This document shows, one piece after another, positions 1,235 to 17,002 of a stretch of 64,000 nt of DNA. Numbering within the stretch: position 1 is the first letter of the stretch; each line of letters starts with the position of its first letter. The DNA is taken from the NCBI RefSeq assembly GCF_000421105.1, contig NZ_ATWF01000001.1, forward strand, positions 530,930 to 594,929. Direction: 5' to 3'. The notes below the pieces were generated by a model that saw only the letters and a program-made list of their open reading frames with translations, was not told the origin of the DNA and ran no database searches. This DNA is from Limisalsivibrio acetivorans. Its GTDB lineage: Bacteria; Chrysiogenota; Deferribacteres; Deferribacterales; Geovibrionaceae. A program made the translations under genes and the position numbers.

Positions 1235-2581
1235 TTAGAATCCCTGGGAAATACCGAATATCTCCGGATAAACCGCAAGGATAATGAGGATAACCGCCTG
1301 TATCGCAATGAACGGCAGAACACCTCTGTATATCTCAGTTGTTTTAACCTGCGGCGGTGCAACCCCTTTCAGATAAAACAAACTGAAGCCGAAGGGAGGC
1401 GTCAGGAATGATGTCTGAAGGTTCATGGCGATTAGTATCGCAAACCATATGGGGTTTATACCTATCGCCTCTGAAATGGGCACCAGAATAGGCACGATAA
1501 TGTAGGATATCTCAATGAAATCGATGAAGAATCCGAGGACCATGATCGATATCATGGAGAGAATCAGAAAACCCCATTTCTCGCCGGGGAGCCCTAGCAT
1601 GAACTCCTCAACAATCATATCACCGCCGGTGTAGGTGAACACCATGGAGAACGCCGTGGCGCCAACAAGGATACCGAACACCATCGCAGTAATCTTAACC
1701 GTCTCCAGTGAGCTGTCGAATATGAGCTTAAAGGAGAATTCCCTGTACAGAATGGAGAGTATCACAGCTCCGACACCACCCACTGCGGCGGATTCCGTAG
1801 GCGTTGCAACCCCGCCGAAGATCGAGCCGAGTACGAGAATGATAAGCACAAGGGGGGGCACAATCGCCTTAATAGCCTTGAATACCTGCTGTTTCTTCGT
1901 TCCGTGGGAATCCTCTATACGAACGGGGGGAGCCGATTTCGGATTAAGGAATGAGATGATTACGATATAGATAACATATGCGCCCACAAGGTACACACCG
2001 GGCCACACAGCCGCCTTGAAAAGATCACCCACGGGAACCTGAAAAACATCCCCGAGGATTATGAGAACGATAGATGGGGGGATAATCTGCCCCAACGTTC
2101 CCGCAGCACAGATGGTTCCTGTGGATAGCTTGTTGTTGTAGTTATACTTTATCATAACCGGGAGGGAGATAACCCCCATCGCCACAACGCTGGCTCCCAC
2201 AACGCCCGTGGATGCCGCAAGGAGTGCGCCCACAAGTACCGTACTGATGGCAAGACCTCCCCTCACCTCGCCGAAAAGAAAGCCCATGGATTCAAGGAGC
2301 TTCTCGGCAAGCTTCGTCTTCTGGAGAACGATACCCATGAAGATGAAAAGGGGGATAGCCATAAGGATCGTGTTGTTCATGATGGCGAAGATACGGTGGG
2401 GCATGAAGGCAAACATAAGCCTCCCCGCCTGCAGACCCTCCATAAGACCGGCATCGAGACCTACGGACATGATGCCCGCTATCATTCCGAATATGACGGA
2501 TACCGCCCCGAAGGTGAACGCAACGGGATATCCGAAAAGAAGCATAAACAGGGCACAGAAGAACATTATGATTCCTATCAT
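1235..2581 (-). CDS. dctM: TRAP transporter large permease, DctM family
   Basis: This is the 12-helix membrane subunit of a tripartite ATP-independent periplasmic transporter, which imports organic acids with sodium. The 448 residues are almost wholly hydrophobic. They begin with the typical first helix carrying a GYPVAF motif and include glycine-rich stretches (GALLAASTGVVGAS, GQIIPPS) seen in this family. The length is normal for DctM. The start overlaps the dctQ stop by 4 bases (ATGA), so the two are translationally coupled. Substrate specificity is set by the binding protein upstream, which is TakP-like, so 2-oxo acids are the most likely cargo. That substrate is inferred. Confidence 0.93.
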   Translation of the reverse strand: MIGIIMFFCALFMLLFGYPVAFTFGAVSVIFGMIAGIMSVGLDAGLMEGLQAGRLMFAFMPHRIFAIMNNTILMAIPLFIFMGIVLQKTKLAEKLLESMGFLFGEVRGGLAISTVLVGALLAASTGVVGASVVAMGVISLPVMIKYNYNNKLSTGTICAAGTLGQIIPPSIVLIILGDVFQVPVGDLFKAAVWPGVYLVGAYVIYIVIISFLNPKSAPPVRIEDSHGTKKQQVFKAIKAIVPPLVLIILVLGSIFGGVATPTESAAVGGVGAVILSILYREFSFKLIFDSSLETVKITAMVFGILVGATAFSMVFTYTGGDMIVEEFMLGLPGEKWGFLILSMISIMVLGFFIDFIEISYIIVPILVPISEAIGINPIWFAILIAMNLQTSFLTPPFGFSLFYLKGVAPPQVKTTEIYRGVLPFIAIQAVILIILAVYPEIFGISQGF

Positions 2582-3114
2582 GATGCGCCTCCCTGCATCT
2601 CTTTGGGCTTCTCTCCGCCTCTGCGGATTATATTGATGTTCTTTACGATATAGCCGACACTAGCCAGTGCAAGCATTGAGAATGCCAGCGGCACAACCGC
2701 CTTAATCAGCCACCGGTGGGTCAGTCCGCCGGGGTCTCCGCTTATCTCACCTGTAACATATGCCTCTTTAACAAAGCCGATGGAACCGGAGGCGATGAGC
2801 AGGGAGAAGGGGATAAGGAACACAAAGGTTCCAACTATATTGATAACAGCCTGCTTCTGGGGGCTGATATTGTCGTATATAACGTCCACTCGAACGTGGC
2901 CGTCCTCCTTAAGCGCATAAACTATGCCGAGGAGAAACACAATAGAGAAAAGGTGCCACTCCATCTCCTGAAAGGCGATATTTCCCGTTTTAAAGAAGTA
3001 GCGCATTATAACGTCGTAAAAAACGTTCAGCGTCATCAGAATCATAAGAGCAGCTGTAAAATAACCGAGCCAGTCGGAAGCCTTGTCATAGATTCGTTCT
3101 ATTTTATCCAGCAT
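2578..3114 (-). CDS. dctQ: TRAP transporter small permease, DctQ family
   Basis: Small membrane subunit that pairs with DctM. It has 178 residues and four predicted helices (roughly 15-40, 50-70, 90-115 and 135-160). The second region carries the QEMEWHLF pattern of acidic and aromatic residues usual in DctQ proteins. An AGGA lies a few bases before the ATG. It is downstream of dctP with a 116-base spacer holding hairpins, and it overlaps dctM. It forms the dctPQM operon in the usual order. Confidence 0.92.
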   Translation of the reverse strand: MLDKIERIYDKASDWLGYFTAALMILMTLNVFYDVIMRYFFKTGNIAFQEMEWHLFSIVFLLGIVYALKEDGHVRVDVIYDNISPQKQAVINIVGTFVFLIPFSLLIASGSIGFVKEAYVTGEISGDPGGLTHRWLIKAVVPLAFSMLALASVGYIVKNINIIRRGGEKPKEMQGGAS

Positions 3115-3230: not shown

Positions 3231-4301
3231 TTACTCTTTGAGGTTGTCCTCAAGATAGTAGTAGTCTGACATCTGAGTCCAAACCCTTACCTTGTTGAGG
3301 TACGCCTCTTGGGAATCGAGGATCTTCTTGAACATGGGGTTGTCCTTTGCTTTTTCAGCAAGAAGCTCGTTGTTTGCCTGCTTCATAGCATCCATAACCT
3401 CTTTGGGGAAGGTTCTGATCTTGATGTTAGGATACTCGGAAGCGATCTTGGACCACGCCTCGGAGCTCATGTGGTAGTTCTCAGCATACATATCGTAAGC
3501 GGAGAGCCTCATTGCTGTTTCGAGGATAGCCTTGTTCTCTTCGGAAAGCTTGTCGAAGGCCTTCTGATTCACGAGGAACTGAAGTTCCGTTGCGGGCTCA
3601 TGCCATCCTGTGTAGTAGTAAGGGGCGATCTTATGGAAGCCCATCTTGATGTCCATTCCGGGACCAACCCACTCAAGGGCGTCGATGGTTCCTCTTTCAA
3701 GTGATGTATAAAGTTCGCCGGGGGGGATGTTTGTTACAGCGAGCCCAAGCTTTGCAAGAACCTCTCCGGCAAAACCGGGGATCCTCATCTTAAGGCCTTT
3801 GAGGTCATCGAGGGAGTTAATCTCCTTTCTGAACCATCCGCCCATCTGGTTTCCTGTGTTACCGCCGGGATAGGAGAGCATGTTGTGCTTGCTGTACACT
3901 TCCTGCATAAGTTCCATACCGCCGCCGTAATAGAACCATGCGTACTGCTCGGGTGCAGTCATACCAAAGGGCATGGTTGTGAAGGCGAGGAATGAGATAT
4001 CCTTACCCTTCCAGTAGTAGGAAGCGGAGTGCGCCATCTGATACTGGCCGAGCTTAACCATGTCAAATACGCCGAAGGGGGCCTTGTGCTTGTTTGCGGC
4101 ATCGATGCGGATAGTGAAGTCGCCGCCGCTCATTTTCTCGACCATAGAAGCCATATTCTCAACGGCATCGGTGAAGGGTGCGAGTGTCGGACCCCAGGTC
4201 ATGGCGAGCTTCCAGCGTACCTTTTGATCAGCAGCAAAAGCGGAAACGCTCAGCATCATAACAACGAGCATCGCTGCAAGGATTGTTCTTGTTAACTTCA
4301 T
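3231..4301 (-). CDS. dctP: TRAP periplasmic binding protein, TakP-like
   Basis: Periplasmic solute receptor of the TRAP transporter. A signal peptide (about residues 1-24, cleaved after AFA) precedes a DctP domain. The conserved substrate-binding arginine lies in the LKMRIPG motif near residue 180, and the downstream ALEWVGPGMD and ELQFLVNQ motifs are those of the TakP branch, which binds 2-oxo acids such as pyruvate with sodium. The start at 4301 is chosen over the ATG two codons upstream (4307) because AGGAG at 4308-4312 is 6 bases from 4301 and abuts 4307. It lies divergent from a pyruvate-type sensor kinase, which supports a 2-oxo-acid role. Confidence 0.9.
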   Translation of the reverse strand: MKLTRTILAAMLVVMMLSVSAFAADQKVRWKLAMTWGPTLAPFTDAVENMASMVEKMSGGDFTIRIDAANKHKAPFGVFDMVKLGQYQMAHSASYYWKGKDISFLAFTTMPFGMTAPEQYAWFYYGGGMELMQEVYSKHNMLSYPGGNTGNQMGGWFRKEINSLDDLKGLKMRIPGFAGEVLAKLGLAVTNIPPGELYTSLERGTIDALEWVGPGMDIKMGFHKIAPYYYTGWHEPATELQFLVNQKAFDKLSEENKAILETAMRLSAYDMYAENYHMSSEAWSKIASEYPNIKIRTFPKEVMDAMKQANNELLAEKAKDNPMFKKILDSQEAYLNKVRVWTQMSDYYYLEDNLKE

Positions 4302-4737
4302 AGACATCTCCTTTAAACAAATATTAAAAAATAACCACGGTCTCCGGAAACCGCTTCTTAAATCATCATCGGTATTTATGAACCAATGTGATATATTACT
4401 ATATTTGCATACTACAAAACACGCCTGTACATGTCAATTCAAAAGCTAACTATATATTAGCACATAACTCCGTTCATTTTACACAAAGTTTACATATATG
4501 ATTTCATTATTTTTTATAATTTAACCTATGACTGTAATATCGTTCCATTTAAGTTAAATTTAATACATATGATTAACTTTGAGCATATAATTCCCTCTGT
4601 CTGACAAAGCGGAAAACATTAATGATGAACCCAAAGTACCGCATCAAACGCTGGCGTTAATATTAATCAACAAAATTGTCCGTTGTGTTTTAAAACAGCG
4701 GGGATTATTGTATTGAAAAATTCCGCACCGGTGTATT
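4302..4737. other. Divergent intergenic region, dctP / btsS
   Basis: AT-rich 436-bp spacer. It holds a clear promoter for the TRAP operon (4409-4437, minus strand). No good promoter was found for the btsS direction. A single imperfect BtsR-like octamer (ACCGCTTC, 4350-4357) is present without a partner 21 bases away. No coding frame is credible. Confidence 0.6.
4409..4437 (-). promoter_or_regulatory. Sigma-70 promoter of dctPQM
   Basis: On the minus strand TTGACA (4437-4432) and TAGTAT (4414-4409) are separated by 17 bases. This places the transcription start about 100 bases before the dctP start codon. Confidence 0.75.
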
Positions 4738-6423
4738 ATGCCCATACTCCTCAATCTTATTCAGGAAATGTCTGTATTTGCTGTTATCGCCTATCTTTAC
4801 AGCAAAACACCTACTTTCCGCCCCCTCATTACCGGCTCATTCCGTACCAAGGACTACGTTTTCCTATACATATTCTTCTCTGCCCTGACCATAATGGGGA
4901 CGTATCTAGGCATACCTATAAAGGACGCCATCGCAAACACAAGGGCCATCGGCGCAGTTATGGCCGGGCTTCTTGGCGGACCGCTCCTCGGGGGTGCAGT
5001 AGGGCTTACAGGCGGACTGCACAGATATATGCTCGGCGGGTTCACCGCCGCCTCCTGCGGAGTCTCTACCACTGTTGAGGGCCTGATTGGCGGCTTTGTA
5101 CATATGTATCTGATACGCCGAAATGAATCCCATAAGGTTTTCTCCTTCAAGGTGGCTTTCTTTACAACATTTATCAGTGAGATAACCCAGATGAGCCTTA
5201 TCATGCTTATATCAAGACCCGTTACTGAAGCATGGGATCTCGTGCGTGTTATCGCCCTGCCGATGATCTTCGCAAACTCCCTCGGAGCGGCGCTCTTCAT
5301 AAGCATCCTGAAGGATCAGAAGAATATGATAGATGTTTACGGCGTAACCTTCTCCAAAAAGGCGTTAAATATCGCAAACAAGACCCTCGGACTGCTCTCC
5401 AAGGGAGTAAAAAGCGATACAGCAGAAAAGCTCGCCAAGGTTATCCATGAGGAAACCGGTGTCGGTTCCGTCGCAATCACCGATACCGAAAAGGTTATCG
5501 CCTTCATAGGAATGGGTGCGGATCACCACAAGCCGGGTACTGTCATATCCTCCCAGTGCACCCTGCGCTCCATAAGGAACAACGAGGTTGTCTTCATAGA
5601 CGGCATAAGCGAGAAGTACGAATGCTCCATTGATGAACACTGCCCCCTCGGCTCCGTTCTTGTGGTTCCGCTTAACGTGGACGGTGAGATCATCGGGACA
5701 ATCAAGATGATGGAGCCGAAGAACAGGCGTTTTCTCGGCATAAACAAGTCCTTTGGTAAAGGTATCGCGGAGCTCCTCTCCACCCAGCTCCTGCTATCGA
5801 AGTACGAAGAGCAGAAAAACCTCCTTGTTAAATCGGAGCTTAAGCTGGTACAGGCGCAGGTGAATCCCCATTTCCTGTTCAATACCCTAAACACAATAGG
5901 CTCGGTTATACGTACAAATCCAGAGAAGGCAAGGGAGCTTATAATACACCTCTCCAGCTTTTTCAGGAGCAACCTCAAGCGCACCAGCGACATATCAACC
6001 CTTCGGGAGGAGGTTGAGCATATTAAGTCATACCTCATTATAGAAGAGGCTCGCTTCAACGACCGTCTCCGTGTGGATATACAGATACCCGAGGAATTTA
6101 TGAATATACGTATACCCGCCTTCTCCCTCCAGCCCGTTGTGGAGAATGCTGTCAAGCACGGTATATCAAGCCTCATGGGCGAAGGTGTAATCTCCATATC
6201 TGCAAAAGTCGGGGATGGAAAGTGCACAATAACCATAGAGGATAATGCCGGTGCATACTGCATGGACAAGAAGAGCAAAACAGGTATCGGAATGAAAAGC
6301 GTGGACAGACGTATAAAAAACCTCTGCGGCAATCAGTACGGTATAGATACGGAATGCTCGGAGGGTGAATACACAAGGGTTATGATAGTAATACCCGAAG
6401 AGGGGTGCGGCGATGAAGTATAG
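4738..6423 (+). CDS. btsS: BtsS/LytS-family sensor histidine kinase
   Basis: Membrane sensor kinase resembling the enterobacterial pyruvate sensor BtsS (YehU). Residues 1-205 form the 5TM-LYT membrane sensor, with the near-identical motifs IANTRAIGAVMAGLLGG and GLTGGLHRY. A GAF domain follows (about 215-350), then a LytS-type kinase with phospho-acceptor His in QVNPHFLFNTLNTI (about 380) and a C-terminal ATPase with VVENAVKHG. The length (561) equals the E. coli protein. The 3' end overlaps btsR by 11 bases. The ATG at 4738 is the first after an in-frame stop, with only a weak ribosome site. Pyruvate as the ligand is inferred from similarity and from the cstA neighbour. Confidence 0.9.
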   Translation: MPILLNLIQEMSVFAVIAYLYSKTPTFRPLITGSFRTKDYVFLYIFFSALTIMGTYLGIPIKDAIANTRAIGAVMAGLLGGPLLGGAVGLTGGLHRYMLGGFTAASCGVSTTVEGLIGGFVHMYLIRRNESHKVFSFKVAFFTTFISEITQMSLIMLISRPVTEAWDLVRVIALPMIFANSLGAALFISILKDQKNMIDVYGVTFSKKALNIANKTLGLLSKGVKSDTAEKLAKVIHEETGVGSVAITDTEKVIAFIGMGADHHKPGTVISSQCTLRSIRNNEVVFIDGISEKYECSIDEHCPLGSVLVVPLNVDGEIIGTIKMMEPKNRRFLGINKSFGKGIAELLSTQLLLSKYEEQKNLLVKSELKLVQAQVNPHFLFNTLNTIGSVIRTNPEKARELIIHLSSFFRSNLKRTSDISTLREEVEHIKSYLIIEEARFNDRLRVDIQIPEEFMNIRIPAFSLQPVVENAVKHGISSLMGEGVISISAKVGDGKCTITIEDNAGAYCMDKKSKTGIGMKSVDRRIKNLCGNQYGIDTECSEGEYTRVMIVIPEEGCGDEV

Positions 6424-7126
6424 AGCACTTGTGATCGATGACGAACCATACGCAAGGGAGGAACTCAAGTACCTCCTGAACGAGTCCGAGCTGTTCGAGT
6501 ATGCCGGAGAGGCTGGAAACGCCGTTGAGGGTGTAAAGCAGGTTAACCGTCTTAAACCGGATATTATTTTCCTCGATATACAGATGCCCGGAATGGACGG
6601 GTTCGAGATGGTAAGCATGCTCGATCCCGAGCGTATGCCCTACATCGTCTTTGTGACAGCGTACGATGAATACGCCCTCAAGGCCTTTGAGGAGAGCGCA
6701 CTCGACTATCTGCTTAAGCCAGTAGAGGCGGAAAGGCTGGAGAGAACAGCCGTTAAGGTCGAAAAGGTTCTCTCCGGCGGTGCTACGCCCAACTATCCTG
6801 AAAAGAAGCTGGAAAAAATACCCTGCACTCTGAAAAATATCATCAAGATCATAGATATAAAGGATATAGAGTACGTCTCCTCTGATATGACAGGGGTTCA
6901 TGCAATTACCCCCGAACGGAGCTACCTCACAGATCTGACCCTTAAGGGTATCGAGTCAAAAACTGATATGCTTCGAACCCACAGGCAGTTCCTCGTTAAT
7001 AAGGAGCACATAGACAATATAGTTATCAATGAGAACCAGTCTGCGGATCTTCATACAAAATCAGGCAAAACCGTTCCAGTAAGCAGACGCTTCCTGAAGC
7101 CGCTGAAGGATGCACTCGGCATATAA
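6413..7126 (+). CDS. btsR: BtsR-like LytTR response regulator
   Basis: Response regulator partner of the upstream kinase. The receiver domain (1-120) has the acidic pocket DDEP (10-12), phospho-acceptor Asp in FLDIQMPG (about 55) and the conserved Lys in YLLKP. A LytTR DNA-binding domain (about 135-237) carries LTLKGIESKT, LRTHRQFLVN and VPVSRRFLKPLK, matching E. coli BtsR closely. The 237-residue length is normal. Its predicted operator lies directly downstream, before cstA, so it most likely activates that transporter, as BtsR does for btsT (yjiY) in E. coli. Confidence 0.92.
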   Translation: MKYRALVIDDEPYAREELKYLLNESELFEYAGEAGNAVEGVKQVNRLKPDIIFLDIQMPGMDGFEMVSMLDPERMPYIVFVTAYDEYALKAFEESALDYLLKPVEAERLERTAVKVEKVLSGGATPNYPEKKLEKIPCTLKNIIKIIDIKDIEYVSSDMTGVHAITPERSYLTDLTLKGIESKTDMLRTHRQFLVNKEHIDNIVINENQSADLHTKSGKTVPVSRRFLKPLKDALGI

Positions 7127-7128
7127 AA

Positions 7129-7219
7129 ACCGCTTAGCCCCCTCCCCCTGCCGCTTAACATATCTATACAACCGCTCAGCACTCCGCACGTATAAAACAC
7201 CCCGTCATATCGTTATTAT
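7129..7219 (+). promoter_or_regulatory. Triple BtsR operator and cstA promoter
   Basis: Three octamers, ACCGCTTA (7129-7136), GCCGCTTA (7150-7157) and ACCGCTCA (7171-7178), are spaced exactly 21 bases apart, leaving 13-base linkers. The E. coli BtsR/YehT site is a direct repeat of ACC(G/A)CT(C/T)A with a 13-base linker. Two of the three octamers match this perfectly and the middle one has one mismatch. A possible -10 (TATTAT, 7214-7219) lies downstream with no clear -35, as expected for an activated promoter. Confidence 0.85.
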
Positions 7220-7248
7220 TAGTGACATACATAAACGGAGGTGTTTTA

Positions 7249-8676
7249 ATGCTGCTCTTTTTCATTTGCACAGCCCTGCTTATCGCAGGCTACTTCACAT
7301 ACGGACTTCTGGTGGACAGGATCTTCGGTTCCGATCCCACCAGAGAAACCCCCGCAGTAACCATGAACGACGGTGTGGACTACGTTAAGATGTCCCCTAA
7401 GAAGATCTACCTTATCCAGCTTCTCAATATCGCCGGTCTCGGACCGATATTCGGTCCTATCCTTGGTGCACTCTACGGCCCCAGCGCACTCATATGGATC
7501 GTAATCGGCTGTATCTTCGGCGGTGCGGTACACGATTACTTCTCCGGCATGCTCTCCATACGCTACAAGGGACAGTCCATCCCCGACTGTGTAGGGCATA
7601 ACCTCGGCAATTTTTTCAAGCAGTTTATGAGAGGCTTCTCTGTTCTTCTCCTTCTGCTTGTGGGCGTTGTTTTCGTACTCGGTCCCGCAAAGCTTCTGGC
7701 GAATATGACATCCCTCCCTGTTATGGTGCTTGTGGGTATCATCTTCTGCTACTACTTCATCGCTACGATCCTCCCCGTGGATAAGATAATCGGCCGTGTC
7801 TATCCCCTTTTCGGCGCAGTGCTTATCTTCATGGCGGTGGGGCTCACTGCAGCTCTCATTGCAAGGGGCTACAGCTTCTACCCCGAGCTTACCCTAAGCA
7901 ATATCCACCCCAAGGAGCTCCCCATATGGCCCCTTATGTTCATCACCATCGCCTGCGGTGCCATCAGCGGCTTCCACGCCACCCAGTCACCCCTAATGGC
8001 AAGATGTGTACCTAACGAAAAATACGGCAGGAAGATTTTCTTCGGCTCCATGATAGGAGAAGGTATCATCGCCCTCATATGGGCAACCCTCGGCATGTCC
8101 TTCTACAGCGGAAGTGCAGATCTCAATGCGGCACTGGCCCAGGGCGGACCCGCCTTCGTGGTAAATGAGATCTCAACCACACTCCTTGGCGGAGTTGGTG
8201 GACTGCTGGCCATCGTCGGTGTTGTTATCCTCCCCATCAGCTCCGGCGACACAGCATTCAGAAGTGCGAGGCTGATCATTGCAGATTTCCTCAAACTCCC
8301 CCAGAAAGAGGGTGCAAAAAGGCTTATGATAGCCGTTCCCCTTTTCCTCGTGGGCTTTCTCGTATCAAGGACGGAGTTCGGCCTCATCTGGAGATACTTC
8401 GGCTGGGCAAACCAGACCCTTGCTACAATCGTACTCTGGGCATCTGCGGCGTATCTCATAAAGCAGGCTAAGTTCCACTGGATAGCGAGCATACCCGCAA
8501 CATTCATGACCGCTGTGGTAATGACGTATCTATCCTATGCTGAAATAGGTTTCGGGCTGGATCTCACAACGGCTACTGCCATAGGCATAATCTCTGCGGC
8601 TGGATCCTTGGCGGCCTTCCTTTACAAGTTCAGGAACTGGGAATCAACGGAGACAGAAGCGGTACAGACTACATAA
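7249..8676 (+). CDS. cstA: CstA/BtsT-family pyruvate transporter
   Basis: Inner-membrane carrier of the carbon-starvation protein A family, whose studied members (CstA, BtsT) take up pyruvate with protons. About 12-13 helices fill the 475 residues. Family motifs are visible: LNIAGLGPIFGPILGALYGP near residue 60, GAVHDYFSGMLSIR, and SGFHATQSPLMARC near 240. It is shorter than the roughly 700-residue E. coli proteins because the C-terminal extension is absent, which is common in other phyla. The start at 7249 is chosen because GGAGG lies 7 bases upstream; the in-frame ATG at 7222 has no ribosome site. It is predicted to be under BtsSR control. Confidence 0.92.
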   Translation: MLLFFICTALLIAGYFTYGLLVDRIFGSDPTRETPAVTMNDGVDYVKMSPKKIYLIQLLNIAGLGPIFGPILGALYGPSALIWIVIGCIFGGAVHDYFSGMLSIRYKGQSIPDCVGHNLGNFFKQFMRGFSVLLLLLVGVVFVLGPAKLLANMTSLPVMVLVGIIFCYYFIATILPVDKIIGRVYPLFGAVLIFMAVGLTAALIARGYSFYPELTLSNIHPKELPIWPLMFITIACGAISGFHATQSPLMARCVPNEKYGRKIFFGSMIGEGIIALIWATLGMSFYSGSADLNAALAQGGPAFVVNEISTTLLGGVGGLLAIVGVVILPISSGDTAFRSARLIIADFLKLPQKEGAKRLMIAVPLFLVGFLVSRTEFGLIWRYFGWANQTLATIVLWASAAYLIKQAKFHWIASIPATFMTAVVMTYLSYAEIGFGLDLTTATAIGIISAAGSLAAFLYKFRNWESTETEAVQTT

Positions 8677-8705
8677 CAAACTCCTGCAAGTCTGAAATAT
8701 GATAC

Positions 8706-8743
8706 AAAAAAAAGGGGAACCTGAGCAGGTTCCCCTTTTTTTT
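8706..8743. terminator. Bidirectional terminator between cstA and the ABC operon
   Basis: A long A run, an AAGGGGAACCTG/CAGGTTCCCCTT stem and a T run form a symmetric terminator serving both convergent transcripts. Confidence 0.92.
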
Positions 8744-8756
8744 GCAGCGTTTATCT

Positions 8757-13203: not shown

Positions 13204-14811
13204 ATGCGCAAATTCCTGAATCTTTTCATTCCCAGGACCATAAAGTCCCAGATGGTAATAATGATCTCCATCGTTGTCGTCCTGCAGATACTAGTAACCG
13301 TAGCCATATTCCAGAGCCATATAGCAGACTACTACGAGGATTATATAGGAAGCCGTGTCATGGGAATCGCCAAAACCGTGGCAAGGATGCACACCGTAAG
13401 GGAGGCTCTGGCGGAGGATATCCCTGTCAGGGATGTGCAGAAACTGGCGGAATCGGTGCGCGAGGATACCGGGGCGGAGTTTGTGGTTGTGGGGAGGCCG
13501 GACGGCACGAGGCTCTCCCACCCTAACCCCGAAAACATTGGCAAGACCTTCGTAGGCGGTGATTTCCGCAGAGCTATCGAGGACGGGATAAGCTACGTTT
13601 CAGAGTCTGTGGGCACCCTTGGTCCCTCGCTGAGAGGCTTTTCTCCCGTTAAAAACGCCGATGGTAGAATAATCGGTTTTGTCTCCGTGGGATACCTTAA
13701 AACAGATGTGGACAGGGAGATATTTCTTGCCCAGAGAAAACCCGCCACTTACGTCTTCATGATGGTATTCATAGGGCTTGTGAGCGCCGTTATCATTGCT
13801 GGCTATGTTAAAAGGATAACCCTCGATCTTGAACCCTCCGAGATAGCCTCTATGCATAAGGAGCGGGAGATCATCCTGAACTCTGTACGGGAGGGGATCA
13901 TTGCCGTTGACTGCACAGGTAGAATTCGCTTTGCAAACAATGAGGCAGGCCGCATACTTCATCTTGAAAATGACATTAACCGTAAAGATATAAACGAAAT
14001 AATGCCGGATAGCATCATAACCAAGCGTCTCTTGAACTGTGAAGAGGGGCACGACGAAGAGATCCGCACCGGTGAAGACACGCTAATATTCAATATCACC
14101 CCCGTATACAGCAGAAGCAGGGTTGAGGGTGTTGTGGCAAGCTTCCGCCGCAGAGATGAGATAGACTATATAAAAAGGGAGCTTAACACTGTCAAGGAGT
14201 GCTCGGAGATGCTGAGGGTTCAGAGCCATGAGTATTCAAACAAACTCCACACCATAAGCGGTCTTCTGCAGATAGAGGAATACGAAGAGGCGAAGGATAT
14301 TATCCTGAAGGAGTCCGAAGGGTATCACTCCCTTGTGGAATACCTCGACAACAGTGTGAACTGCACTCTCATAAGCGGAACGGTGATAGGAAAGTATAAC
14401 CGTGCCTGCGAGCTCAAGTGCGAGTTCGAGCTGTACAGAGATGGAGGATGGCCCGCTCCCCCCGCCTCACCGGATGATGCTGTAACTATCCTCGGAAACC
14501 TTCTGGACAACGCCATGGAGGCTGCACGCAACAGCGAAAAGCCGTGGATTAAACTCAGCCTCTACACCGATGATGACATGCTCGCCGCACTGGTAGAGGA
14601 TAACGGGCCAGGGCTCAACCCCGAGAACAACATCTTCGCTAAGGGCTACACAACGAAGGGTGACGGCCACGGCATAGGGCTGTACAACGTTGTGATGGCC
14701 CTTGAGAACGCAGAGGGAAGGATAGAAGCTGGGAACCGTGATGAGGGTGGTGCATACTTCCGTATCTTCCTTCCGGCTGCTGAAGAAATCATAGAGGAGC
14801 AAGAGGCATGA
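13204..14811 (+). CDS. dcuS: DcuS/CitA-family sensor histidine kinase
   Basis: Membrane sensor for C4-dicarboxylates or citrate. Order: helix 1 (about 15-37), periplasmic PAS-like domain (38-175) with RPDGTRLSHPNPENIGK as in the family, helix 2 (178-198), cytoplasmic PAS (about 215-325), Spo0B-type kinase with phospho-acceptor His in QSHEYSNKLHTISG (about 342) and C-terminal ATPase with GLLDN-like NLLDNAMEAA and KGYTTKGDGHGIGL. The 535-residue length is normal. It overlaps the regulator gene by 4 bases, and a DcuA/B carrier follows, so a C4-dicarboxylate ligand is more likely than citrate. Confidence 0.9.
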   Translation: MRKFLNLFIPRTIKSQMVIMISIVVVLQILVTVAIFQSHIADYYEDYIGSRVMGIAKTVARMHTVREALAEDIPVRDVQKLAESVREDTGAEFVVVGRPDGTRLSHPNPENIGKTFVGGDFRRAIEDGISYVSESVGTLGPSLRGFSPVKNADGRIIGFVSVGYLKTDVDREIFLAQRKPATYVFMMVFIGLVSAVIIAGYVKRITLDLEPSEIASMHKEREIILNSVREGIIAVDCTGRIRFANNEAGRILHLENDINRKDINEIMPDSIITKRLLNCEEGHDEEIRTGEDTLIFNITPVYSRSRVEGVVASFRRRDEIDYIKRELNTVKECSEMLRVQSHEYSNKLHTISGLLQIEEYEEAKDIILKESEGYHSLVEYLDNSVNCTLISGTVIGKYNRACELKCEFELYRDGGWPAPPASPDDAVTILGNLLDNAMEAARNSEKPWIKLSLYTDDDMLAALVEDNGPGLNPENNIFAKGYTTKGDGHGIGLYNVVMALENAEGRIEAGNRDEGGAYFRIFLPAAEEIIEEQEA

Positions 14812-15479
14812 TACGGGTCATGATAATCGAAGACGACAGAAATATCGCCAGCCTCCACAGCAAGTTCACTGAAAAAGTGGAAGGGTTCACTCCGGCGGGG
14901 ATAGCAAACAGTCTGGAGGAGGCAGAGGAGATGGCGGAGATACTTGAACCCGATCTTGTTCTGCTGGATCTCTTCCTCCCCGACGGTAGCGGTATGGAGT
15001 TTCTGCGTGGGATTAGAAGCAAAGGGATCGAGGCGGATGTAATACTGATTACAGCGGCAAAGGATGTTAAAAGCCTGCAAAGCGCCATGCGCGGCGGAGC
15101 GTTTGATTATATAGTCAAGCCTGTGATATTCGAACGGTTCAAGCAGTCTCTCAACCGCTACAGGGACTACACAGCAGAGCTCGAGAAGAGCGCAACACTC
15201 GAGCAGGGGGATATCGACCATATACTGGACAGGCACAGCGAAAACAGTATCCAGGACCTGCCGAAGGGGATATACCCCATTACCCTGAAAAAAATCACGG
15301 CGGTTTTCGACAACGGAAAGGACGGTCTCTCCGCAGAGGAGGCGGGGGAACTCATCGGCGCAAGCAGAAATACCGCAAGGCGATACCTCGAATACCTCTC
15401 CGAAACGGGCTTCCTCTATGCAGATATTGACTACGGGGCGGTGGGGAGACCGGAGAAAAAGTTCTACCGTCATAATTAG
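14808..15479 (+). CDS. dcuR: DcuR/CitB-family response regulator
   Basis: Partner of the upstream kinase. The receiver domain (1-122) has the acidic pair EDD (about 7-9), phospho-acceptor Asp in LVLLDLFLPDG (about 54) and Lys in YIVKP. The C-terminal part (about 155-223) is a helix-turn-helix with SAEEAGELIGASRNTARRY, as in CitB/DcuR regulators. It is expected to activate the dcuA/B-type gene downstream; direct repeats lie in that promoter region. Confidence 0.9.
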   Translation: MIRVMIIEDDRNIASLHSKFTEKVEGFTPAGIANSLEEAEEMAEILEPDLVLLDLFLPDGSGMEFLRGIRSKGIEADVILITAAKDVKSLQSAMRGGAFDYIVKPVIFERFKQSLNRYRDYTAELEKSATLEQGDIDHILDRHSENSIQDLPKGIYPITLKKITAVFDNGKDGLSAEEAGELIGASRNTARRYLEYLSETGFLYADIDYGAVGRPEKKFYRHN

Positions 15480-15549
15480 TTATTTATAACTAGAAATCTA
15501 CCTTAATAGACCCATCGCTCATCTGTGAGCATAATGAGCAAAACCTCTT

Positions 15550-15609
15550 TTATTTCCTTTAATACCCTTATTTCCTAATGATTTACAATGGTCTTACCAG
15601 TGTTATATT
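15550..15609 (+). promoter_or_regulatory. Promoter and possible DcuR site of dcuB
   Basis: TTTACA (15582-15587) and TATATT (15604-15609) are 16 bases apart. Just upstream a direct repeat TTATTTCCT occurs at 15550-15558 and 15568-15576, an 18-base step, where an activator would bind. The assignment to DcuR is inferred from context only. Confidence 0.5.
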
Positions 15610-15673
15610 ACCTGCTATGGAAACAATGAAACGGTGTTATCCAAGACCGTTTTGAAACATAGGAGGTTCCACC

Positions 15674-17002
15674 ATGTTATACGTTCAGTTTTTATTCCTT
15701 CTTGTAATGCTCTACATCGGAAGCCGTTACGGCGGTATAGGCCTCGGAGTCGTCTCCGGTATAGGTCTGGCTGTTGAGGTCTTCATATTCCAGATGACCC
15801 CCACATCACCCCCCATAACCGTTATGCTCATCATCCTTGCGGTTGTAACCTGTGCATCTATCCTCGAAGCGGCGGGCGGTTTAAAGTATATGCTACAGGT
15901 TGCCGAACGGCTGTTGAGATCGAATCCGAAGCGTATCACAATCTTCGGCCCCCTTGTTACATACACCATTACCTTCATGCTCGGAACAGGGCATGCGGTG
16001 TACTCCATCATGCCCATTATCGGCGACGTTGCCCTTAAGAACGGTATAAGACCCGAACGTCCCATGGCGGCGGCTTCCGTCGCATCACAGCTCGCCATCA
16101 CAGGAAGCCCCATCTCCGCAGCTGTTGTATACTACCTCAGCCAGCTGAGCGGAATAAGCAGCAATATAACTCTACTCTCCATACTCGGTGTCACAGTTCC
16201 CGCAACTATCATAGGAACCATAGCCATGTCACTATACAGCCTCCGCCGGGGTAAGGAGCTTAAGGACGATCCCGAATACCAGAGAAGGCTTCAGGATCCC
16301 CTCTGGAAGGAGAAGATCGAAAACACCACAGCAACCACACTTGACGAAGAGCTCCCCGCCTCTTCCAAGCATGCAGTAATGCTCTTCATTCTCGCACTCT
16401 TAACCATCGTTGTGATAGCCATGTTCCCTGAAATAAGGACCATCGGCGGCGCAGAGAAGCCCGTTAAGATGTCCATAATAATCCAGATGATGATGCTCGC
16501 CTTCGGCGGTATAATCATGATAGTAACCAAGACCAAGTCCGCAAAGGTTCCCGAAGGGGTTGTATTCAAGTCCGGTATGGTGGCGGCAATCGCTATCTTC
16601 GGTATCGCATGGATGAGCGACACCTACTTCCAGCACGCAATGCCCAGCTTCAAGGAAGGTATCACCGGAATGGTACAGAACTACCCATGGACCTTCGCAC
16701 TTGCTATGTTCATAGTATCCGTTGTTATCAACTCCCAGGCGGCAACCTGCCGTATGATGCTACCCGTGGGTCTCGGCCTCGGCCTCAGCCCTGCCCTGCT
16801 CATCGGTATCATGCCCTCATGCTACGGATACTTCTTCATCCCCAACTATCCCTCTGATATTGCCACATGCAACTTCGACAACACCGGCACAACAAAGATA
16901 GGGAAGTTCTACTTCAACCACAGCTTCATGATTCCGGGACTTATAGGAGTTCCAACGGCATGTGTTGTGGGATACTTGCTGGCAAAGGTACTGATAGGAT
17001 AA
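15674..17002 (+). CDS. dcuB: Anaerobic C4-dicarboxylate antiporter, DcuA/DcuB family
   Basis: Inner-membrane carrier exchanging fumarate, malate or aspartate for succinate. The 442 residues and about 10-12 helices match DcuA/DcuB. Motifs include GTGHAVYSIMPII (about 98-110), ASVASQLAITGSPISAAVVY (about 135-155) and PNYPSDIATCNFD near residue 395, all hallmarks of the family. AGGAGG lies 7 bases before the ATG. Its position after dcuSR is like the E. coli dcuB-dcuSR arrangement, so I use dcuB, although DcuA cannot be excluded from sequence alone. Confidence 0.9.
   Translation: MLYVQFLFLLVMLYIGSRYGGIGLGVVSGIGLAVEVFIFQMTPTSPPITVMLIILAVVTCASILEAAGGLKYMLQVAERLLRSNPKRITIFGPLVTYTITFMLGTGHAVYSIMPIIGDVALKNGIRPERPMAAASVASQLAITGSPISAAVVYYLSQLSGISSNITLLSILGVTVPATIIGTIAMSLYSLRRGKELKDDPEYQRRLQDPLWKEKIENTTATTLDEELPASSKHAVMLFILALLTIVVIAMFPEIRTIGGAEKPVKMSIIIQMMMLAFGGIIMIVTKTKSAKVPEGVVFKSGMVAAIAIFGIAWMSDTYFQHAMPSFKEGITGMVQNYPWTFALAMFIVSVVINSQAATCRMMLPVGLGLGLSPALLIGIMPSCYGYFFIPNYPSDIATCNFDNTGTTKIGKFYFNHSFMIPGLIGVPTACVVGYLLAKVLIG

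Follow-up and report, generated by a model that had tools for sequence, protein, structure and literature searches.

A predicted three-box BtsR operator upstream of a short cstA gene in Limisalsivibrio acetivorans and its counterparts in other phyla

Whether the octamers standing between btsR and cstA in Limisalsivibrio acetivorans form an operator for BtsR, and whether such a site was kept in this phylum or imported into it, was the question raised by this locus. The window, which is the whole 64-kb stretch of DNA analysed here, carries btsS (4738..6423, plus strand), encoding a LytS-type sensor kinase of 561 aa, btsR (6413..7126, plus strand), which overlaps btsS by 11 bases and encodes a LytTR response regulator of 237 aa, and cstA (7249..8676, plus strand), the predicted target, encoding a short CstA-family transporter of 475 aa. 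The ribosome-binding sequence GGAGG of cstA was located at 7237..7241 (plus strand), and a strong terminator-like hairpin with a 20-pair stem and T runs was found 3' of the gene (8703..8746). The Rfam search gave no match.

By pattern and by matrix, three predicted BtsR boxes were placed on the plus strand, in the interval that separates the stop codon of btsR (7124-7126) from the start of cstA (7249): box 1, ACCGCTTA, at 7129..7136 (-120 of cstA), beginning 2 bases past the btsR stop; box 2, GCCGCTTA, at 7150..7157 (-99); and box 3, ACCGCTCA, at 7171..7178 (-78). The earlier note had described three octamers at exact 21-base intervals between the two genes, and both the coordinates and the spacing were confirmed, with linkers of 13 bases whose sequences are not conserved. 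Tandem boxes of ACCRCTYA type with 12-13-base linkers, as expected ahead of a BtsR target, were found. The genome-wide search was a pattern search, in which RCCGCTYA-N13-RCCGCTYA occurred at this site only in the window (expected 0 from 100 shuffles), and its zero-mismatch matches in the 2.97 Mb genome were solely two overlapping places within this array. The pair pattern with a 12-base linker had no match at fewer than 2 mismatches in the whole genome. With a matrix trained only on 34 gammaproteobacterial boxes, from arrays that were chosen by pattern and included E. coli, the window array scored 36.8 compared with 36.3 for E. coli btsT, and the best score among 400 dinucleotide shuffles was 9.7.

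The two proteins that would act on this array were compared with those of E. coli. BtsS shares 50.6% identity with its E. coli counterpart and has the domain order 5TM-5TMR_LYT, GAF, His_kinase. In the E. coli protein R72, R99, C110 and S113 contact pyruvate and H382 is phosphorylated (PMC10653868); all five residues (E. coli numbering) are present in the window BtsS, and they were retained in nearly all homologues compared. By this analogy we infer that the window BtsS is a predicted pyruvate sensor. BtsR is 50% identical to its E. coli counterpart and passed the NCBIfam BtsR equivalog model NF008677 with 315.2 bits (cut-off 246), and its binding to the three octamers is predicted. The pair had earlier been called highly similar to the enterobacterial one, a wording to be read as an identity of about 50%. 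A single further LytTR protein is encoded in the genome; it is of PAS-LytTR type, its gene adjoins those for carbon-monoxide dehydrogenase, and it is an unlikely competitor of BtsR. As a separate observation, the PAS-LytTR gene (L188 3878-4585; G000 C1:1663000-1671000) adjoins genes for carbon-monoxide dehydrogenase, a CooC-like ATPase and ferredoxin-like proteins, and its product looks like an RcoM-type CO-sensing regulator.

The target matched Pfam PF02554 (182.6 bits, cut-off 27; 1.8e-53), and was 33% identical over its length to E. coli BtsT (716 aa). In the tree, the window CstA fell inside a short-CstA clade, separate and deep relative to the long BtsT-like clade, and it scored 97.9 bits against the NCBIfam CstA equivalog (cut-off 1188). 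An orthologue of BtsT, a long CstA of about 700 aa, was therefore rejected as its identity, on the grounds of its 475 aa, the 33% identity and the separate deep clade. In this way the claim that both genes encode members of the same transporter family held at the level of the Pfam family, and the short clade lies far from BtsT. Solved structures searched by sequence included no match to the short CstA. Judged from its family and its regulation, CstA probably imports pyruvate.

BtsR was detected in 8 of 51 genomes of the window's phylum. In two of these relatives (G024 and G010) cstA directly follows btsR, and in three others (G025, G026 and G027) it lies elsewhere in the genome, apart from btsSR. 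Relative to cstA, the three-box arrays that all five carried were at about -115 to -119, -93 to -98 and -73 to -78, and every one scored above all shuffles. In three Desulfobacterota genomes (G181, G280 and G362) a short cstA comes next after btsSR; its product is 74-76% identical to that of the window, and arrays stand at about -120, -100 and -80 of cstA, those of G280 and G362 being weak (scores 8 and 10). Arrays were therefore present at cstA in 8 of the 8 BtsR-bearing relatives tested (2 weak). No array was found at cstA of G018, whose CstA is 74% identical and whose genome has neither BtsR nor any LytTR protein. Across 26 cstA upstream regions from two phyla, all 9 with BtsR outscored all 17 loci in genomes where BtsR was not detected (P = 2e-5), and these 17 had no array at cstA. 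The comparison is not independent of kinship, since among the BtsR-less loci only that of G018 has a CstA of 74% identity and the rest have 56-69%. The array is thus co-conserved with BtsR. The outcome that the earlier note had named as refuting its reading, a lack of such repeats upstream of cstA in close relatives, therefore did not occur in those with BtsR, and its proposal of a BtsR-type operator before a CstA-family gene adjoining btsSR, still a prediction, was supported by these arrays.

The promoter of cstA was located only by comparison across loci, the arrays having been placed beforehand by the matrix. In most of the 19 arrays compared, a -10-like hexamer stood 42 or 43 bases past the start of box 3, and the mean hexamer score over the 19 loci was 3.89 compared with 3.01 as the highest over all offsets in 2000 shuffles, 0 of which matched the observed mean. 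In the window the predicted -10 hexamer is TATTAT (7214..7219, plus strand, 43 bases from the start of box 3); it was TATAAT in G024, TATCAT in G025, TATTAT in G026, TAAAAT in G019 and G020, TAGAAT in G322 and TACAAT in Shewanella. The hexamer was poor in E. coli (CAACAT) and in Mangrovibacter, one base off in Pseudovibrio, and absent in G181. No good -35 hexamer was found upstream of the predicted cstA -10, and no -35 consensus was seen in the arrays compared. A sigma-70 consensus scan across the region did not rise above shuffles, which is the expected outcome for a promoter without a -35. If transcription starts near 7226, box 3 would lie at about -55 to -48 with box 2 two turns and box 1 four turns further upstream, an arrangement suggesting an activator-dependent promoter.

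Taken as a whole, the three octamers were read as the BtsR operator of a pyruvate-BtsS-BtsR-CstA activation circuit which is old, spans several phyla and was not recently imported from enterobacteria, with a probability of roughly 0.88. In this circuit, the membrane kinase BtsS would sense outside pyruvate and then phosphorylate BtsR. BtsR~P would occupy the three tandem boxes before cstA, which are two helical turns apart and so would lie on one DNA face. The bound regulator would activate a sigma-70 promoter with its -10 at 7214-7219 and no good -35, and cstA would be switched on for probable pyruvate uptake by CstA. Pyruvate sensing, phosphotransfer, activation instead of repression, and pyruvate as the cargo we infer from E. 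coli and Salmonella (PMC5431176, PMC9504724). The operator is probably a working one.

True BtsR sites might also, or mainly, serve the repression of cstA or the control of read-through from btsR. Such a role would fit the position of box 1 immediately after btsR, and a scan of the btsR-cstA interval found no terminator-like site before cstA. However, box 3 lies wholly upstream of the predicted -35 position, as is usual for activators, the array is kept before cstA genes that lie distant from btsR, and BtsR of both E. coli and Salmonella is an activator (PMC5431176, PMC9504724). This role was therefore considered very improbable, and activation of cstA by BtsR was retained.

The earlier note had also regarded the operator as enterobacterial and the circuit as possibly transferred as a unit. 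The first point did not hold, as arrays were also found in Desulfobacterota, Alphaproteobacteria, SAR324 and non-enteric Gammaproteobacteria. For the second, a recent acquisition of the whole module (btsS, btsR, operator and cstA) from Gammaproteobacteria would agree with the patchy occurrence of BtsSR in the phylum (8/51 genomes), and with the short CstA, BtsSR and arrays that Motilimonas, Photobacterium, Shewanella and Pseudovibrio also carry. In the BtsS tree, however, the window and six relatives formed their own clade (100/100) outside the clade of all Pseudomonadota sequences (99/98), with the Desulfobacterota sequences in two further groups; the window CstA joined sequences of its phylum and of Desulfobacterota (100/100), and the G+C of the locus resembled that of its surroundings. 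A recent enterobacterial transfer is thus not supported and was rejected on the two trees, and a recent origin from Gammaproteobacteria in general was largely refuted, leaving it little credit beside an old circuit. The patchiness of BtsSR, including 7 of 395 Desulfobacterota genomes, may reflect losses and old transfers, such as an ancient one between lineages resembling Deferribacterota and Desulfobacterota.

A functionless chance or compositional repeat, or the sites of another protein, could be imagined from such short octamers with unconserved linkers, but this hardly deserves belief, as no shuffle came near the array, which tracks BtsR across genomes, linked or unlinked, with a fixed promoter geometry, and the single further LytTR protein encoded in the genome belongs to another type.

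Genes other than cstA were also considered as BtsR targets. Divergent from btsS, the window carries a TRAP operon on the minus strand, comprising dctP (3231..4307; substrate-binding protein of TakP/ketoacid type), dctQ (2578..3114; small membrane subunit, PF04290) and dctM (1235..2581; large membrane subunit, PF06808). Its control by BtsR was rejected for lack of an array upstream (score -16.6), and the predicted BtsR regulon here comprises one target, as in E. coli. Among solved TRAP binding proteins, 5cm6 and 4pet aligned with the window DctP over nearly its whole length; more distant matches were the ketoacid-binding 7ug8 and 2hzk, which together with 2hzl we take to be pyruvate-binding TakP. 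G019 and G020 have no short cstA; after btsR they carry a DctPQM TRAP transporter with arrays, and the DctP there is 77% identical to that of the window. A similar TRAP transporter with an array follows btsR in the Desulfobacterota genome G322. In Telmatospirillum (L039 6765-6943) an array precedes a pyruvate formate-lyase operon (PF02901) beside btsSR. In Azospirillum (L060 2560-3995, minus strand) an array precedes a membrane-permease-like gene and then a serine dehydratase gene; it is divergent from a BtsS copy without the pyruvate-contact residues, so the signal there may differ.

Several observations were made beside these targets. In SAR324 (L055 3407-4270) an array was found ahead of a second, broken copy of btsS, with 2-oxoacid:ferredoxin oxidoreductase genes further on. 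Control of pyruvate:ferredoxin oxidoreductase by BtsR in SAR324 was withdrawn as a candidate, since it is this btsS fragment that the array precedes, with the oxidoreductase genes about 1.2 kb further along. A second array of G181 (ACCACTTA, ACCGCATA and ACCGCTCA; L146 5100-5200, minus strand) precedes a short ORF. Codon 17 of the G019 btsR (L029, start 9177) is an in-frame TAA, so that either the gene is broken or the sequence is in error; the array and the TRAP neighbour are still present. In the window itself, a second organic-acid locus was noticed at 13204-17002, where a DcuS/DcuR-like two-component pair directly precedes a DcuA/DcuB-type C4-dicarboxylate transporter.

A wider reading was somewhat favoured, namely that sensor, regulator, three-box operator and the 42-43-base distance to the -10 form an ancient module present in at least three phyla, whose output gene was exchanged many times among long BtsT, short CstA, TakP-type TRAP, pyruvate formate-lyase and possibly serine uptake and breakdown. 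BtsR would then be a general pyruvate regulator and not a one-gene enterobacterial switch.

These results extend a known circuit to a new place and are not a new mechanism. The comparative study of BtsSR that we found was confined to Gammaproteobacteria, where it missed the motifs of Serratia and Aeromonas (PMC5552118), and the papers on BtsSR found in a search of open-access literature all dealt with this class. It is uncommon for a cis-regulatory site to be kept across such a distance. The matrix and the spacing rule are usable for predicting pyruvate regulons in uncharacterised phyla, the short CstA and the TakP-type TRAP transporter are named as candidate pyruvate transporters, and the comparison of arrays points to a functional third box in E. 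coli btsT.

The BtsS/BtsR-btsT (YehU/YehT-yjiY) system of E. coli shares with the window the pyruvate-contact residues, a regulator of the BtsR equivalog, a CstA-family target, three tandem boxes in 20-21-base steps and probably a single target gene. Two octamers had been assumed upstream of btsT, but in E. coli K-12 three were found, GCCGCTCA-N12-ACCGCTTA-N13-ACCACTCA, at -184, -164 and -143 (L031), with GCCGCTCA as the third octamer beyond the ACCRCTYA-N13-ACCRCTYA pair. The YehT-binding oligonucleotide of E. coli covers all three boxes (PMC4847170). Therefore, the contrast of three boxes with two falls away, and a special status of three boxes was ruled out by E. coli and other loci, Photobacterium (L038) having five tandem boxes. 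The systems differ in that sensor and regulator are only about 50% identical, the target adjoins btsSR in the window but not in E. coli, a short CstA of 475 aa takes the place of the 716-aa BtsT (33% identical), and box 3 begins at -78 of the start codon compared with -143 in E. coli, giving a shorter leader in the window.

The YpdA/YpdB (PyrS/PyrR)-yhjX system of E. coli is likewise a pyruvate-responsive LytS/LytTR pair with direct repeats, but it differs in its motif, GGCATTTCAT, and in its MFS target (PMC4847170, PMC5552118). In Bacillus, Fictibacillus and Paenibacillus (L064, L067, L091 and L095) a LytS-family kinase gene, a regulator gene and a CstA-family gene are also adjacent, whereas the BtsR-like proteins are only 35-39% identical and the CstA is long; the gammaproteobacterial box pattern was absent there by pattern scan. 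The order btsS-btsR-cstA is common to the window and, in another phylum, to Motilimonas, Photobacterium, Shewanella, Pseudovibrio, Aeromonas and Oceanisphaera, whose short CstA proteins are 55-66% identical to that of the window over most of their length. The pattern scan found no array at the Aeromonas btsSR-cstA loci; arrays precede the short cstA of Motilimonas, Photobacterium, Shewanella and Pseudovibrio.
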